Source: Ruegeria sp. THAF33 (GTDB lineage Bacteria > Pseudomonadota > Alphaproteobacteria > Rhodobacterales > Rhodobacteraceae). Taken from it: 64,000 bases of DNA. The notes under the pieces are model-generated. The model was not told the origin of the DNA and did not search any database. It saw only the letters and a list, made by a program, of their open reading frames with translations. The stretch's first letter is position 1, and every line of letters starts with the position of its first letter. The stretch covers positions 3,098,501 through 3,162,500 of the forward strand of contig NZ_CP045384.1 of the NCBI RefSeq assembly GCF_009363615.1, given 5' to 3'. This document shows, one piece after another, positions 8,571 through 32,296 of this stretch. Made by a program: the position numbers and the translations under genes.

Positions 8571-10107
<1,537 letters not shown>

Positions 10108-27274: not shown

Positions 27275-27729
27275 AAAGAAAGAATACCAAGGGATTTATT
27301 TATACATAGGATTTTTTGAATTTTCTCGTATTTTTCCAAAAAGCCTGTTGCGCTCCCACCGCGCGTGTCCGGCAGGAATGTTAACCAATGTCTCGCTCAA
27401 TCGCTTCGGGATTACTCAAGTCAATTCTGTTTTTAATCACCCGGCAAAGTCGGCAATGGGCTCGAAGCCGTCTTCCAAGCATTTTTGATTAACGTCAGCT
27501 TTCGGGTCATTTGCAGCCGCTGACTCCCTGCGATTTGGGTGGCAAGGTTACGCATTTTGCGGATGGGTCACACCTTTCTGATTCAAGTCACATAATATCA
27601 ATGATTTAGCCCTGGCATGTGTCACGCCTTTATTGGCGGCGGCCACAGATTTTAGAGATCCGATCCCTCACTTTGTTCAACAGAAGCGGACCGAACTTCC
27701 TCGTGCCGCAGTGAGCAATTGAGGTTGAT
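27275..27729. other. AT-rich intergenic region at the left border of the island
   Basis: About 455 bases without a credible gene. The left half is AT-rich with several T-runs. Near 27560-27635 there are repeated TCACA/GTCAC blocks (GGGTCACACC, AAGTCACATAA, TGTGTCACGCC) in both orientations, which could be binding sites for the helix-turn-helix proteins that follow. I found no copy of the tRNA-Lys 3' end here, so an attachment site is not shown. Confidence 0.4.
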
Positions 27730-27933
27730 ATGCCCAAGTTGACACAAGATCAGCTGGCGGAGCGGTGGCACATGTCGCCGCGGACGCTGGAGCAGTGGCG
27801 CTGGCTCGGAAAGGGCCCCAGGTTTTTGAAGATCGGCGCGCGCGTTTTATACGATGAAGGCGTGATCGAAGCCTTTGAGGAGGCGCAGGTCTGCCAGAAT
27901 ACATGCGGACCGATTTCCGGGGAGGGTGTGTAA
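27730..27933 (+). CDS. Small helix-turn-helix (excisionase/AlpA-like) protein
   Basis: 67 aa. The MerR/excisionase-type winged helix is LTQDQLAERWHMSPRTLEQW, followed by GPRFLKIGARVLYDEGVIEAFE, the strand-and-wing pattern typical of AlpA/Xis proteins. Start ATG at 27730 follows TTGAGGTTGAT. The stop overlaps the next start (TAATG), so the two are coupled, and an integrase follows. It probably controls excision or expression of the island genes. Confidence 0.8.
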   Translation: MPKLTQDQLAERWHMSPRTLEQWRWLGKGPRFLKIGARVLYDEGVIEAFEEAQVCQNTCGPISGEGV

Positions 27934-28439
27934 TGGCAAAGTCCTTCCCCTCACACAAAGTCAAATCGCACCTTGTCTACACAGTCTGGGAGGTGGCGGA
28001 CGTTTTGAGCTGTCATCGCCAGACCGTCATTCGCTGGATTGGGAACAACGGACTTGCGGCTGATACCAGCAGCAAGCCCTGGTTGATCGAAGGACATGTG
28101 ATCAAGGACTTCCTCGGACAAAGACAACGCAAGACGCGGTGCAAGTTGGCATTGCATCACTGCTACTGCCTCAGCTGCAGAGGTCCGCGCGAACCCGACG
28201 GCAAGATCGCTGACTATGTTCAGGAAACAGCTTCCAGCGGCCGCCTAACAGCCCTCTGTCCGACGTGTGGTGCGGTCATGAACAAGATCATTCGCCGTTC
28301 AGATCTGGAAGCCATTCAGGCCAAACTGGAGGTCACACTTCAACAAGCCTCCCCAAGATTAGTGTCCTGTACCGAACCCCATTCAAGAGTGACCTTGAAA
28401 GAGGAGCCCGAGACCCATGCCAAAACACACCTCGGATAA
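27933..28439 (+). CDS. Helix-turn-helix protein with zinc-ribbon-like cysteines
   Basis: 168 aa from the ATG that overlaps the previous stop. The N-terminal third is an excisionase-like helix-turn-helix (YTVWEVADVLSCHRQTVIRW, then the wing and IEGHVIKDFLGQR). The middle has two Cys pairs, CLSCRGPR near residue 79 and CPTCGAVM near 111, spaced like a zinc ribbon. The C-terminal 40 residues are polar and probably disordered. It overlaps the integrase start by 23 bases. The triad helix-turn-helix, helix-turn-helix plus zinc ribbon, and integrase suggests a defined mobile module. Function beyond DNA binding is unknown. Confidence 0.7.
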   Translation: MAKSFPSHKVKSHLVYTVWEVADVLSCHRQTVIRWIGNNGLAADTSSKPWLIEGHVIKDFLGQRQRKTRCKLALHHCYCLSCRGPREPDGKIADYVQETASSGRLTALCPTCGAVMNKIIRRSDLEAIQAKLEVTLQQASPRLVSCTEPHSRVTLKEEPETHAKTHLG

Positions 28440-29475
28440 CCTGCGCATCAAGCGCAAACACCTTGTCTGGCTGAAGGACGCAAAGGGGTTGTCGCAATCT
28501 TCGATCGACAAAGCCGCAGCGTCGATTGCCATCTATGACAGATGGCTCAAAGGTAAGGATTACAGGGCGTTCCATTCAGAAAGGGCGCGCGCGTTCAAAC
28601 GCCATCTGCAAGGTCTACGCAATGACCGCACAGGCGCTTCATTGTCGCCTGCCACGATCAACGGCGTGCTGCGCGACGTCATGAAGTTCTTTGACTGGAT
28701 GGCGGACCAACCGGGGTACAAGTCCAGGATCTCCCGCGCCGACATTGCCTATCTCACACCGGATCGCAAATCGGAACAGGCCCGTCGCGGCACCCTTTGG
28801 AAACCGCATCCGTCTCCCGAACAGGTTGAACGCCTGTTGTCTGAGATGCCCATAGAAACAGTCATCCAGCGCCGTGATCGTGCGCTGATCGCCTTCTTGT
28901 TTCTGACCGGATCACGTGAAGGTGCCGCCATCACCGTGCGGCTGCGTCATGTCGATCTAGCCAATAAATGCGTTCAGTTTGACGGCCGTTCCGTGGATAC
29001 AAAGTTTGGAAAGTCCTTCACGACCAGTTTCTTTCCCTTCGGTGATGATGTCGAAAGGATTCTGCGAGACTGGATCACGGAGCTTCGTCAGGACCATCTT
29101 TTCTCGGACACGGATCCTCTGTTCCCAAAGACACGCGTCGCTGTTGGCCCGTCCAGACGGTTTGAGGCAGTAGGTATCGCGCGCGAGCCGTGGGCCGGCC
29201 CGTCGTCTGCGGCCAGGATCTTCAAGCAATCTTTCGTCAACGCCGGGCTGCCACCGTTTTCGCCGCACCGCGTGCGAGATACGATCGCAGAGCTGGCAAA
29301 ACTTCACTGCAGGACACCAGAGGACTATAAAGCCTGGTCGCAGAATATGGGACACGACGACGTGATGACGACGTTCAGCTCCTATGGTTCTGTTTCACCT
29401 GGCCGTCAGGTCGAACTGATGGGGCGGTTTCGCCGCCGTGGACCGTTGCCAGACGAGGACGCGGTTATTGATTAA
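28417..29475 (+). CDS. Tyrosine-type recombinase/integrase of the island
   Basis: 352 aa. The N-terminal SAM-like core-binding domain spans about residues 5-100 (LSQSSIDKAAASIAIYDRWL). The catalytic domain has Arg in FLFLTGSREGAAITV (near 168), His-x-x-Arg in FSPHRVRDTIAELAK (near 288), His in NMGHDDVMTTFSSYG and the Tyr nucleophile in SSYG (near 325-331). All catalytic residues are present, so it may be active. It ends three bases from the convergent QueC-like gene. It probably moved the 27.7-32.1 kb segment; tRNA-Lys at the right edge is the natural target, but no att duplicate was found. Confidence 0.88.
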   Translation: MPKHTSDNLRIKRKHLVWLKDAKGLSQSSIDKAAASIAIYDRWLKGKDYRAFHSERARAFKRHLQGLRNDRTGASLSPATINGVLRDVMKFFDWMADQPGYKSRISRADIAYLTPDRKSEQARRGTLWKPHPSPEQVERLLSEMPIETVIQRRDRALIAFLFLTGSREGAAITVRLRHVDLANKCVQFDGRSVDTKFGKSFTTSFFPFGDDVERILRDWITELRQDHLFSDTDPLFPKTRVAVGPSRRFEAVGIAREPWAGPSSAARIFKQSFVNAGLPPFSPHRVRDTIAELAKLHCRTPEDYKAWSQNMGHDDVMTTFSSYGSVSPGRQVELMGRFRRRGPLPDEDAVID

Positions 29476-29478
29476 TGA

Positions 29479-31332
29479 TCAACTCCGGTGACGGACCCGA
29501 ACGACCACGCGCTCGGGAGCAAGCCGGTATCCGTTCCAAGAGAGATTTTCGATCAACTCTTGGGGCTTATCAACTGACAGACCAGCGGACTCGAATCTCT
29601 TTGCAATCGTTCTTCGCGCGGTCAGTATTCTCCGCCTAACGACTTCGCTGGTTTCAACGCCTAATTTTTCGACGAGGTCGCCAGACTTCAAGCAGGGATA
29701 CTCCAAAGGTTCGAGACCTTTGCCTGCCGCACGGAGCCACTCTTCAGCCAAAACGATCAACAGATCCGCTGTGGCGTTTTTCTTAAGCTCAATATGTTCG
29801 CCGATCAAAACCAAACGTGAGGTTTTGTCGATTTCTATGGTCAGCGGTGGTTTCTCTTTCTCGTTTTTATCAACTGAGGGAGCCGGCACGAAAGGCAAGG
29901 ACAAGGCGCTCTGCATCGCACCATATAGTCTTGGCAAACTCTGTTCAGGGAACTCACCGGGTGACTTGCTTTCAAGAATTCTGCGCATCACCGATGTGAC
30001 CGCCTTTCCATGGCGGTTCAGCAAATCTGCGATCATCACCATGGCTGTGTCTGGCGGATTGTCGAGGTGATTGACCGCATCCAACACAACGGGGAAATTT
30101 CGGATCAGTGCATCTGGCGTGGCGTTTTCAAACAACACTGCATTGCGCACATAGGACAACGCCATCTCCCGGTCGGTCCCGTTCGGTCGAGCGTCCGACA
30201 TAAGGTCCACGCGATAGGCATCTTCCGGGTCAAATCGCTCCAACCCCTTTGAAAGCATCGCGAACCGCCGATCGATACACTGCGAACAGCGCCCACAATG
30301 GAAGTATTGATGGGTTTGATTATGCACATCAACGCAGCTACGCGTCTCGATAATCTGGTCTGCTATCCCCAGTTGCGCAATGCGTTCCACGACTTCTGCT
30401 TTTGTGCGCGCGAAGAATGGATTGTCGACCCGCATATCCTTCTCGAAAACAAGCCGCAGAAGACCGGTGAACAGCTTCAGTGTCTTTGGATGCGTGGTTC
30501 GCGTCGCTCGTGTTCCAACGACGTTGCCGACCGGCGGTAGGTTGAGGCTCACGACCCCGTTTTCATGGAACGACACGCGGTCCAGTCCAAAGGCCGTTGC
30601 AGTGATCGACCCAAGTACCGCAAACAGGAATGAGCGTGTGCGATGCGTTCTTTCCGCGGTCGATCGGCTCTTCAACTGGGCGGTCATGGGAATGTGACGG
30701 CACGTTTCCGGTCCGTACCGTTTGCTCAACGCTGAGATCAGCCGTTTCTGGACTGGCGCTATTTTCGTGGAAGAGGCATGACTGACCAAAGCAACCCGAT
30801 GCTTCTGTTCTACGATTTCTTCCACAGCACCCGCAAAGGAATCGAGCCCGCCGGAAAACATCAGGACGCGGTGGGGCGTCCATGAACTATTTCGGCCGAA
30901 TTTGAAGAAGCGCGATCGCTCTGCATCCGGTTCGTCTTTGGTCGAAAAAGAAAATTCAAAGCGGTCGCCGGATAGAAACATCAACGTTTCTTCCAGAGCC
31001 TGTATTACGCTCTCACGTTGCCAGAAATCCAGATCGCGTACCGGCATGGTGGCTACGAACCGTCTGTGCCACTTCTCACCCATCTTCTGATCCGCCGGGC
31101 CACCACGGCTGACTGCCGCGTCCGCGCAATAGACAAGCGCGGCAATCTCCAGCAAATCGAGTGCACGATCCTGCAGGGCCTCGACCAATTGACGGTTCAA
31201 TTGTCCAATCCGCAGCGTCATTGCGACTTCGCGGCCAGCAATGTCGAGACGCAGGACTTCATCACCGCCGCTTTTTGTCAGCGGCGGCAACCATCTGACT
31301 TCAACTTCAGACAACGGCGCGACGGCGCCCAA
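29479..31332 (-). CDS. QueC-like PP-loop protein with C-terminal OmpR-type winged helix (QatC/Cap9-like)
   Basis: About 617 aa. An N-terminal region of unknown fold (1-150) precedes a QueC-like ATP pyrophosphatase: the PP-loop is HRVLMFSGGLDSFAGAVEEI (about 153-172) and the zinc cluster is HCGRCSQCIDRRF near residue 345. QueC makes preQ0; divergent relatives (QatC in Qat, Cap9 in type IV CBASS) serve anti-phage systems. A separate C-terminal domain (about 500-610), with VVRRRILTARRTIAKRF and ending LIENLSWNGYRLAP, resembles an OmpR/PhoB winged helix, which I do not know from those systems. The frame opens at a TTG overlapping the upstream gene by 26 bases; the exact start is uncertain. No queD, queE or queF is nearby, so queuosine synthesis is unlikely. 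Confidence 0.72.
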   Translation of the reverse strand: MGAVAPLSEVEVRWLPPLTKSGGDEVLRLDIAGREVAMTLRIGQLNRQLVEALQDRALDLLEIAALVYCADAAVSRGGPADQKMGEKWHRRFVATMPVRDLDFWQRESVIQALEETLMFLSGDRFEFSFSTKDEPDAERSRFFKFGRNSSWTPHRVLMFSGGLDSFAGAVEEIVEQKHRVALVSHASSTKIAPVQKRLISALSKRYGPETCRHIPMTAQLKSRSTAERTHRTRSFLFAVLGSITATAFGLDRVSFHENGVVSLNLPPVGNVVGTRATRTTHPKTLKLFTGLLRLVFEKDMRVDNPFFARTKAEVVERIAQLGIADQIIETRSCVDVHNQTHQYFHCGRCSQCIDRRFAMLSKGLERFDPEDAYRVDLMSDARPNGTDREMALSYVRNAVLFENATPDALIRNFPVVLDAVNHLDNPPDTAMVMIADLLNRHGKAVTSVMRRILESKSPGEFPEQSLPRLYGAMQSALSLPFVPAPSVDKNEKEKPPLTIEIDKTSRLVLIGEHIELKKNATADLLIVLAEEWLRAAGKGLEPLEYPCLKSGDLVEKLGVETSEVVRRRILTARRTIAKRFESAGLSVDKPQELIENLSWNGYRLAPERVVVRVRHRS

Positions 31333-32086
31333 ACTCCGAGCGCATCTTTTTGAACGCGTAAGCTGTGAACTTGTCTATTGCATCGCGATCAAGCGCCTGC
31401 TTCTGCCAGACGGTTTTGCCATACCAGCCGCCTGCATATTCTTCGACAATTCTAGACACTTCAAATGTGTGCTGGGCGAGGGCTTTTTGAAATGTCACTC
31501 GCTGGGCATCGGTGGAAAAGCGTCGATCCTCGCCAGTGTGATTGGCGAGTTCCCGGCTCAGATAATAGTCTAGCGAGCGGTATGTCAGCCGGGCAAAGAA
31601 ATCCCGCGAGAGTCTCGCAAATGCATCACCCGAGGCGAAGCTCGCGAGTGCTTGGCGAATTTCTTGCGGTGTCGGTTCAAACAGGGATGGCAACCGGTCG
31701 TGCAGCTGAACGGAAAGGCTTTCCAAGAGCGCGACCTTCGCCAATTCTCCTGCATCTGAGGAACTTCGGAGATCGAAGCTGTTGCGATCAATGGCACGAT
31801 CCAAACCGGCCAGCAAGCCGGTCACTGAACCGAGCTCCGACGTCGCAATGCCCAAGTCAGCCAAAGCGTCTTCGAAGCCAGGAGCCCTTGCAAGCAAAGG
31901 CAGCCTCACGAGGAGATCACTTACAAACTGAAACCTGGGGTCACGACTCGCCCGTGCGAGATCGCTCTCAGATGCATCCGCTGCGGCCTCGGCGATCTCT
32001 TCGACTGACGCATCGGTTGCGATCAGATCAACGACCTCGCGCCACTTCCTGGATCGAGGCAAAGTGCCAAGCCTGATGTGTCCCAT
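31307..32086 (-). CDS. Unknown protein paired with the QueC-like protein
   Basis: 259 aa from ATG 32086, chosen because GGGAGGAAC lies directly before it; a 9-residue longer form has no ribosome site. It begins MGHIRLGTLPRSRKWREVV, giving a Gly after the initiator Met. The body is mostly helical and charged, with LVRLPLLARAPGFEDALADLG, SLFEPTPQEIRQALASFASG and an Arg-rich end (FGRRRAVV). A pattern FQKALAQHTFEVSRIVEEYAGGWYGK near 210-235 looks like a conserved core. I recognise no known domain. It overlaps the QueC-like gene, so the two are co-expressed and probably act together. By analogy with type IV CBASS it could be the target of nucleobase conjugation at its N-terminus; this is speculation. 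Confidence 0.6.
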   Translation of the reverse strand: MGHIRLGTLPRSRKWREVVDLIATDASVEEIAEAAADASESDLARASRDPRFQFVSDLLVRLPLLARAPGFEDALADLGIATSELGSVTGLLAGLDRAIDRNSFDLRSSSDAGELAKVALLESLSVQLHDRLPSLFEPTPQEIRQALASFASGDAFARLSRDFFARLTYRSLDYYLSRELANHTGEDRRFSTDAQRVTFQKALAQHTFEVSRIVEEYAGGWYGKTVWQKQALDRDAIDKFTAYAFKKMRSEFGRRRAVV

Positions 32087-32220
32087 CCGTTCCTCCCTCG
32101 CCTGAAGAGTCATTCAACCATCAGGCGAATGTAAAGGGAAAAATGGCGGCCTTCGCTTACCCTACGCTTACCCGAAGCGAGTGTTAGGCATGAGATCGCC
32201 TCGTAAGTCTTTGAAAACAG

Positions 32221-32296
32221 TGGTGAGCCGTGCAGGATTCGAACCTGCGACCCACTGATTAAAAGTCAGTTGCTCTACCAACTGAGCTAACGGCCC
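32221..32296 (-). tRNA. tRNA-Lys(TTT)
   Basis: The minus strand reads GGGCCGTTAGCTCAGTTGG... with anticodon loop CTTTTAA (anticodon TTT) and T-arm GGTTCGAATCC, ending with an encoded CCA (76 bases). The acceptor stem pairs throughout with one G-U. Its 3' end faces the integrase island, the usual orientation for tRNA-targeted integration. Confidence 0.96.

Follow-up and report, generated by a model that had tools for sequence, protein, structure and literature searches.

What do the two adjoining genes at 29479..32086 of a 64,000-nucleotide stretch of Ruegeria sp. THAF33 (contig NZ_CP045384.1, positions 3,098,501 to 3,162,500; hereafter the window) encode, and which group, if any, does the enzyme of this pair attach to its partner? 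A preliminary description of this DNA proposed a QueC-like PP-loop enzyme, an unrecognised protein of 259 amino acids (aa), and a new, minimal kind of defence or protein-modification unit. Our analysis pointed, with a probability of about 0.72, to a mobile anti-phage cassette of the QatB-QatC type in which only the two core proteins remain. The following features underlie this reading.

29479..31314 (-), enzyme gene: 611-aa QatC-like protein with a C-terminal winged helix; the alternative start TTG 31332 would give 617 aa
29917..31311 (-), QatC module of the enzyme (residues 2-466): N-terminal extension, PP-loop domain and the helices that bind QatB in QatC
30838..30855 (-), PP-loop SGGLDS (residues 154-159)
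30493..30504 (-), TRTT (residues 271-274): counterpart of QatC T278-T281 by alignment to 9zee_B
30277..30336 (-), zinc cysteines C327...C340-G-x-C343-S-Q-C346
29491..29850 (-), OmpR/PhoB-type winged helix (residues 489-608 of the enzyme)
31307..32086 (-), partner gene: 259-aa, QatB-like, all-helical protein with the N-terminus MGHIRLGTLPRSRKW, whose Gly2 would be exposed on removal of Met
32078..32086 (-), proposed acceptor end: start codon and the Gly2-His3 codons

The homology of the enzyme to QatC was strong. The QueC-like open reading frame (ORF), confirmed here together with that of its partner, matched Pfam QueC (PF06508) at 3.1e-7, PADLOC QatC at 8.6e-58, NCBIfam QatC at 6e-63, yet with 213 bits under the equivalog cut-off of 280, and the QatC chains 9vlk (1.7e-32) and 9zee (1.2e-26) of the PDB. 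The PP-loop signature SGGxDS was found in 146 of 147 full-length relatives. In an enzyme alignment of 58 rows, the four cysteines of the zinc site (Cys...CGRCSQC in the window) were invariant, as were R272, H275, and P276, and T271, T273, and T274 were at least 90% conserved. This conserved catalytic set maps onto QatC residues whose changes kill qatABCD defence (PMC13279940).

Phylogenetic analysis recovered the enzymes as one clade with 100/99 support, distinct from canonical QatC (99/96) and from a third group, the latter two being joined by long branches that drew a warning from the tool. The third QatC-related group, on a long branch, comprised enzymes of 462-465 aa (L204, 6962-8356; L205, 6936-8321; L206, 6852-8240) in which neither the strict SGGxDS nor the strict TxTTHP pattern was detected; an ORF of 204-211 aa containing MSDGP lay just upstream of the enzyme in L205 and L206, that of L205 having no Pfam match.

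As a member of the QueC superfamily (PF06508) that shares the PP-loop and zinc site with QueC of queuosine synthesis, the enzyme might be read as a metabolic or tRNA-modifying one. We regard this as very improbable: the canonical QueC motifs are replaced by those of QatC, the gene pair is patchy, mobile, and found in damaged copies, and queuosine was not regained in E. coli with QatC (PMC13329287). The enzyme also differs from QueC in length and in having a partner, and its host gave no QueC, QueD, or QueE match.

The OmpR-type winged helix fused to this QatC was missed by the preliminary description and was established on the predicted structure of the window's enzyme. Among 146 enzyme tails, 57 had at least 330 aa and 69 were short (<290 aa). 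The long and short tails aligned with each other over no more than the helices that bind QatB, so it is not established that all members of the enzyme family share a DNA-binding end.

Sequence searches of Pfam, PADLOC, NCBIfam, PHROGs, and PDB assigned the partner to no convincing family. Profile-profile comparison of QatB with the partner family showed no similarity, and Foldseek returned no match below 0.001 and no QatB among the best 50 of 308. VIA-align, by contrast, matched the partner structure to QatB. Judged on this model, the partner is most likely a structural QatB and homology to QatB has good support; the protein is therefore hardly the new kind that the preliminary description had implied, while its N-terminus suits the N-terminal modification proposed there. 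Its tail has approximately 12 residues and begins MGH, and this N-terminal MGH was strongly conserved; canonical QatB began MGTS in 8 of 8 cases. Rows entered the partner alignment on the basis of an ATG-Gly-His start, so Gly2 and His3 are invariant there by construction, and MGH was one of two patterns in the pattern search, which biases that search toward the motif. Less biased sets were given by the word searches, where among the matches listed (120 of 1004 and 120 of 256) 221 began MGH, 7 had it within 60 residues, and 12 did not show it, and by the profile matches in genomes of the host's family, where 12 of the 13 other loci read from xGH and L009 lacked that end.

Adjacency and gene order also supported a functional unit. 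The partner start ATG 32086 is preceded by GAGGGAGGA. The first start listed for the enzyme is TTG 31332 (617 aa); TTG 31314 (611 aa), a candidate but unproven start, gives an 8-nt overlap with the partner stop, and the same overlap was found in 42 of 159 loci when each relative was assigned the start codon closest to the stop of its partner. We searched with the partner alignment and recovered 181 genome loci and 97 IMG/VR viral-contig loci, of which 80 each were kept (n = 160). The enzyme lay downstream of the partner on the same strand in 159 of these loci, from several phyla, and a pairing by chance can therefore be dismissed. The exception was L067, with a shortened partner and no enzyme. 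Two further loci, L006 (partner shortened) and L010, had no enzyme within approximately 1.5 kb downstream.

The closest known system is qatABCD (PDB 9y01/9y02; PMC13279940), which the pair resembles in the QatC fold, in an active site including Thr-Thr and four Cys, in the QatB-like fold with Gly2, and in having B before C in adjacent genes. In contrast to qatABCD, the window pair begins MGH instead of MGTS and has a tail of approximately 12 rather than 30-90 residues, its QatC carries a winged helix and falls in a separate clade (100/99), and window-type pairs reside on an element that targets tRNA genes and in the neighbourhood of phage-type genes. QatA (KAP NTPase) and QatD (TatD nuclease) were found by profile search in none of 159 loci, and the window had neither at E up to 1, in agreement with the preliminary description; the canonical QatB profile likewise matched nothing in the 159 loci or, at E up to 1, in the window. 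These profiles were built from 8 QatA (4 of 4 checked were KAP NTPases) and 7 QatD (4 of 4 checked were TatD DNases), and both flanks reached at least 3 kb in 84 of the 159 loci. The proposal of a different, minimal system thus stands for a reduced pair lacking QatA and QatD, and fails for an unrelated system, the two proteins most likely being a natural QatBC core. Such a core can be sufficient, as QatB and QatC alone are reported to protect against phage lambda-vir and QatB G2D to abolish defence (PMC13279940). In PMC13329287, qatA is near 34.3% and qatD near 33.6% of the QatC cluster, most members having neither listed as a neighbour. PMC13141931 concerns a canonical qat operon. Among the open-access papers listed by our searches, no title or abstract opening described a QatBC system of two genes in which a winged helix is present, and the accessible sections of PMC13329287 describe no two-gene form.

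We then considered the DNA that carries the pair. Its distribution was patchy and mobile: a partner match was present in 14 of 248 genomes of the host's family, the host included. Neighbouring genes were grouped into clusters, each named from one representative. Of the 159 loci, 80 had a cluster of large serine recombinases; a phage primase cluster was present in 54, a Sak4-like one in 39, and a Cas4-exonuclease one in 30. Phage-type genes thus lay near the pair at many loci. Clusters of prophage-like character, namely serine recombinase, primase, Sak4, Cas4-exonuclease, and DUF2924, recurred near the pair in L085, L112, L179, L163, L096, and their relatives. Damaged copies of the pair occurred, for example, in L005, L016, L020, L038, L043, L067, and L072. 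Searches at 1e-5 against isolate phages gave no match to the window's partner, and plasmids gave one partial match, in Leptospira. A defence role is likely, in view of the QatC identity, the QatB-like fold, the conserved catalytic set, the protection reported for QatBC alone, and this mobile, patchy distribution.

In Rhodobacterales, the pair rides an integrative element of approximately 4.8 kb at the 3' ends of tRNA genes. In the window, this element and its target comprise the following features.

27455..32220, integrative element of ~4.8 kb, ends approximate; 92-95% identical in L020, L021, and L022
27730..27933 (+), 67-aa HTH_17 protein, possibly an excisionase
27903..28439 (+), 178-aa HTH_17 protein; DUF5679 matched it weakly, under the cut-off
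28417..29475 (+), tyrosine integrase (PF00589, 4.4e-9); its gene and that of the enzyme converge, with stop codons 3 nt apart
32153..32174 (-), GGGTAAGCG repeats in tandem, 11 bp apart, ~87 nt upstream of the partner start
32221..32296 (-), tRNA-Lys (TTT), the insertion site, upstream of the partner; its 3' end abuts the element

The integrase and tRNA-Lys reported beside the pair were both found. The 92-95% identical copies of the element lay beside tRNA-Lys in Shimia abyssi, tRNA-Thr in Ruegeria profundi, and tRNA-Arg in an uncultured Roseobacter. Among 26 close loci that were scanned, 23 had a tRNA gene immediately upstream of the partner: tRNA-Lys in 13, tRNA-Arg in 5, tRNA-Thr in 4, and tRNA-Ala in 1. 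In 21 of the 160 loci, an integrase of the window type followed the enzyme directly, in convergent orientation. We sought a long attachment repeat at the element and found none; in three relatives, its left flank could not be located next to tRNA-Lys, which gave no clean empty site. A congeneric relative that shares 94% identity across tRNA-Lys and the adjacent gene carried a diverged element at the same tRNA-Lys, indicating that different versions of the element entered this site or diverged there. In L238 (G730; 2377 and 9690-9743), different DNA occupied the same tRNA-Lys, with a 54-nt repeat of the 3' half of the tRNA as its boundary, and similar copies of 45-51 nt were found in several genomes of the genus; given these repeated copies, tRNA-Lys looks like an insertion hotspot.

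The repeats of the GGGTAAGCG type, 11 bp apart, were found in 20 of 147 upstream regions, all within L020-L046 and mostly 84-103 nt before the partner, the GGTAAG pattern having been chosen after the window's copy was seen. Repeats of the GGGACAGAT type, 9 bp apart, were found in some other relatives. The GGTAAG repeats may serve the winged helix as an operator or the integrase as an arm site. Their position between the attachment site and the gene, together with the winged helix, would fit a pair that regulates the mobile element carrying it (control of excision, copy, or lysogeny) by binding repeats at the element end and has no part in defence. This explanation seems improbable to us because the pair also occurs near unrelated recombinases (the serine recombinase cluster), the L046 pair has no window-type integrase in the DNA examined, QatBC homologues protect against phage (PMC13279940), and the repeats themselves may be arm sites.

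To address which group the enzyme might attach, we focused on the pathway for 7-carboxy-7-deazaguanine (CDG). The preliminary description pointed to Qat and type IV CBASS (cyclic oligonucleotide-based anti-phage signalling system) immunity, in which the enzyme is reported to join a deazaguanine to a protein N-terminus. Cap9 of type IV CBASS is a QueC-family enzyme whose partner protein likewise has an N-terminal Gly as target. In place of Cap9's Tyr-Asp base reader, the window enzyme has TRTTHP. The adjacent partner, all-helical and QatB-like, is no CD-NTase; the remaining window was not searched for one. The host genome (100% complete, 0.57% contamination) had no canonical QueC, no PTPS/QueD, and no match to one QueE model, in line with the reported lack of queuosine-synthesis genes; its other PF06508 match was rejected as QueC, being an NAD synthase.

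We extended this search to 42 partner-bearing genomes, of which 41 are distinct (G229 and G311 share contig and places) and among which further duplicates may exist; the named loci are 30 selected from the 80 genome loci, and the search took in all but two of these 30. Full-length canonical QueC was present in 12 of the 42 and a PTPS/QueD relative in 16, whereas 25, or 24 of the 41 distinct genomes, the host included, had neither. Both genes of the pair were open in 17 of these 24; in the rest, the pair was cut by the contig end (G007) or was damaged or lacked the enzyme (G035, G064, G093, G191, G246, and G308). QueE, searched with one model, was unmatched in 23 of the 24 and gave a 24-bit partial match in the other, in a test that is not very sensitive, as the 6 of 6 control genomes with QueC and QueD matched weakly (20-53 bits). 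Because so many genomes lack QueC and QueD, 17 with an intact pair and 23 without a QueE match, the gene content suggests that host-made CDG is probably not needed by the pair. TGT was present in all 24, and these bacteria thus probably salvage preQ0, preQ1, or queuine. The pair was not associated with CDG-lacking genomes (PTPS in 16 of 42 searched genomes vs 22 of 61 relatives) and so seems indifferent to the pathway. Among genomes with canonical QatC, 7 of 8 had a PTPS match, one of them weak. L195 (G431), from a genome of the host's family, had a canonical qatABCD operon, and no PTPS/QueD was found.

Such hosts imply that the enzyme works without CDG, unless CDG is external or arises by an unrecognised route, which fits its Thr-Thr pocket. 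The latter exceptions define a Cap9-like deazaguanylation with CDG from an unrecognised host route, uptake, or a phage with its own 7-deazaguanine genes. The QueC ancestry, the Gly2 acceptor, the PTPS/QueD relative in 16 of 42 genomes, and the TGT kept in all 24 genomes lacking QueC and QueD, with its probable base salvage, would suit this reading. It is nonetheless unlikely in light of the missing QueC and QueD in 24 of 41 distinct genomes, with QueE unmatched in 23. We know of no uptake of CDG. The replacement of the Tyr-Asp base reader by a QatC-type Thr-Thr (PMC13279940) likewise speaks against it, and the deazaguanine of the preliminary description has become doubtful. For QatC itself, the reaction was stated to be unresolved and its activity resisted reconstitution in vitro (PMC13279940).

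In the QatBC cassette that we favour, the QatB-like partner and the QatC-like enzyme would form a complex, the partner would lose its Met, and QatC would use ATP to modify the alpha-amine of Gly2 with a group other than host-made CDG. The winged helix may place this complex on DNA, a role that QatA may serve in qatABCD, where it could sense invading DNA or control its own promoter, and the modification would switch on protection against phage. More specifically, but tentatively, the pair may be a self-contained mobile immune system in which a QatC with its own DNA-binding domain modifies QatB Gly2 with another cell metabolite or with a 7-deazaguanine supplied only by the infecting phage. If the latter holds, the phage's own base-modification pathway would be the trigger.

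The QatBC kind of system was already known, and what is new here is its two-gene form with a winged helix, which widens the known settings of QatBC-type genes to prophage-like DNA and to a very small element that targets tRNA genes, and connects these genes with a DNA-binding domain. The apparent lack of CDG synthesis in many hosts provides a direct argument on the substrate of QatC. As a natural two-protein version of QatBC with a very short tail, the pair may be easier to study, and its chemistry is now easier to test.
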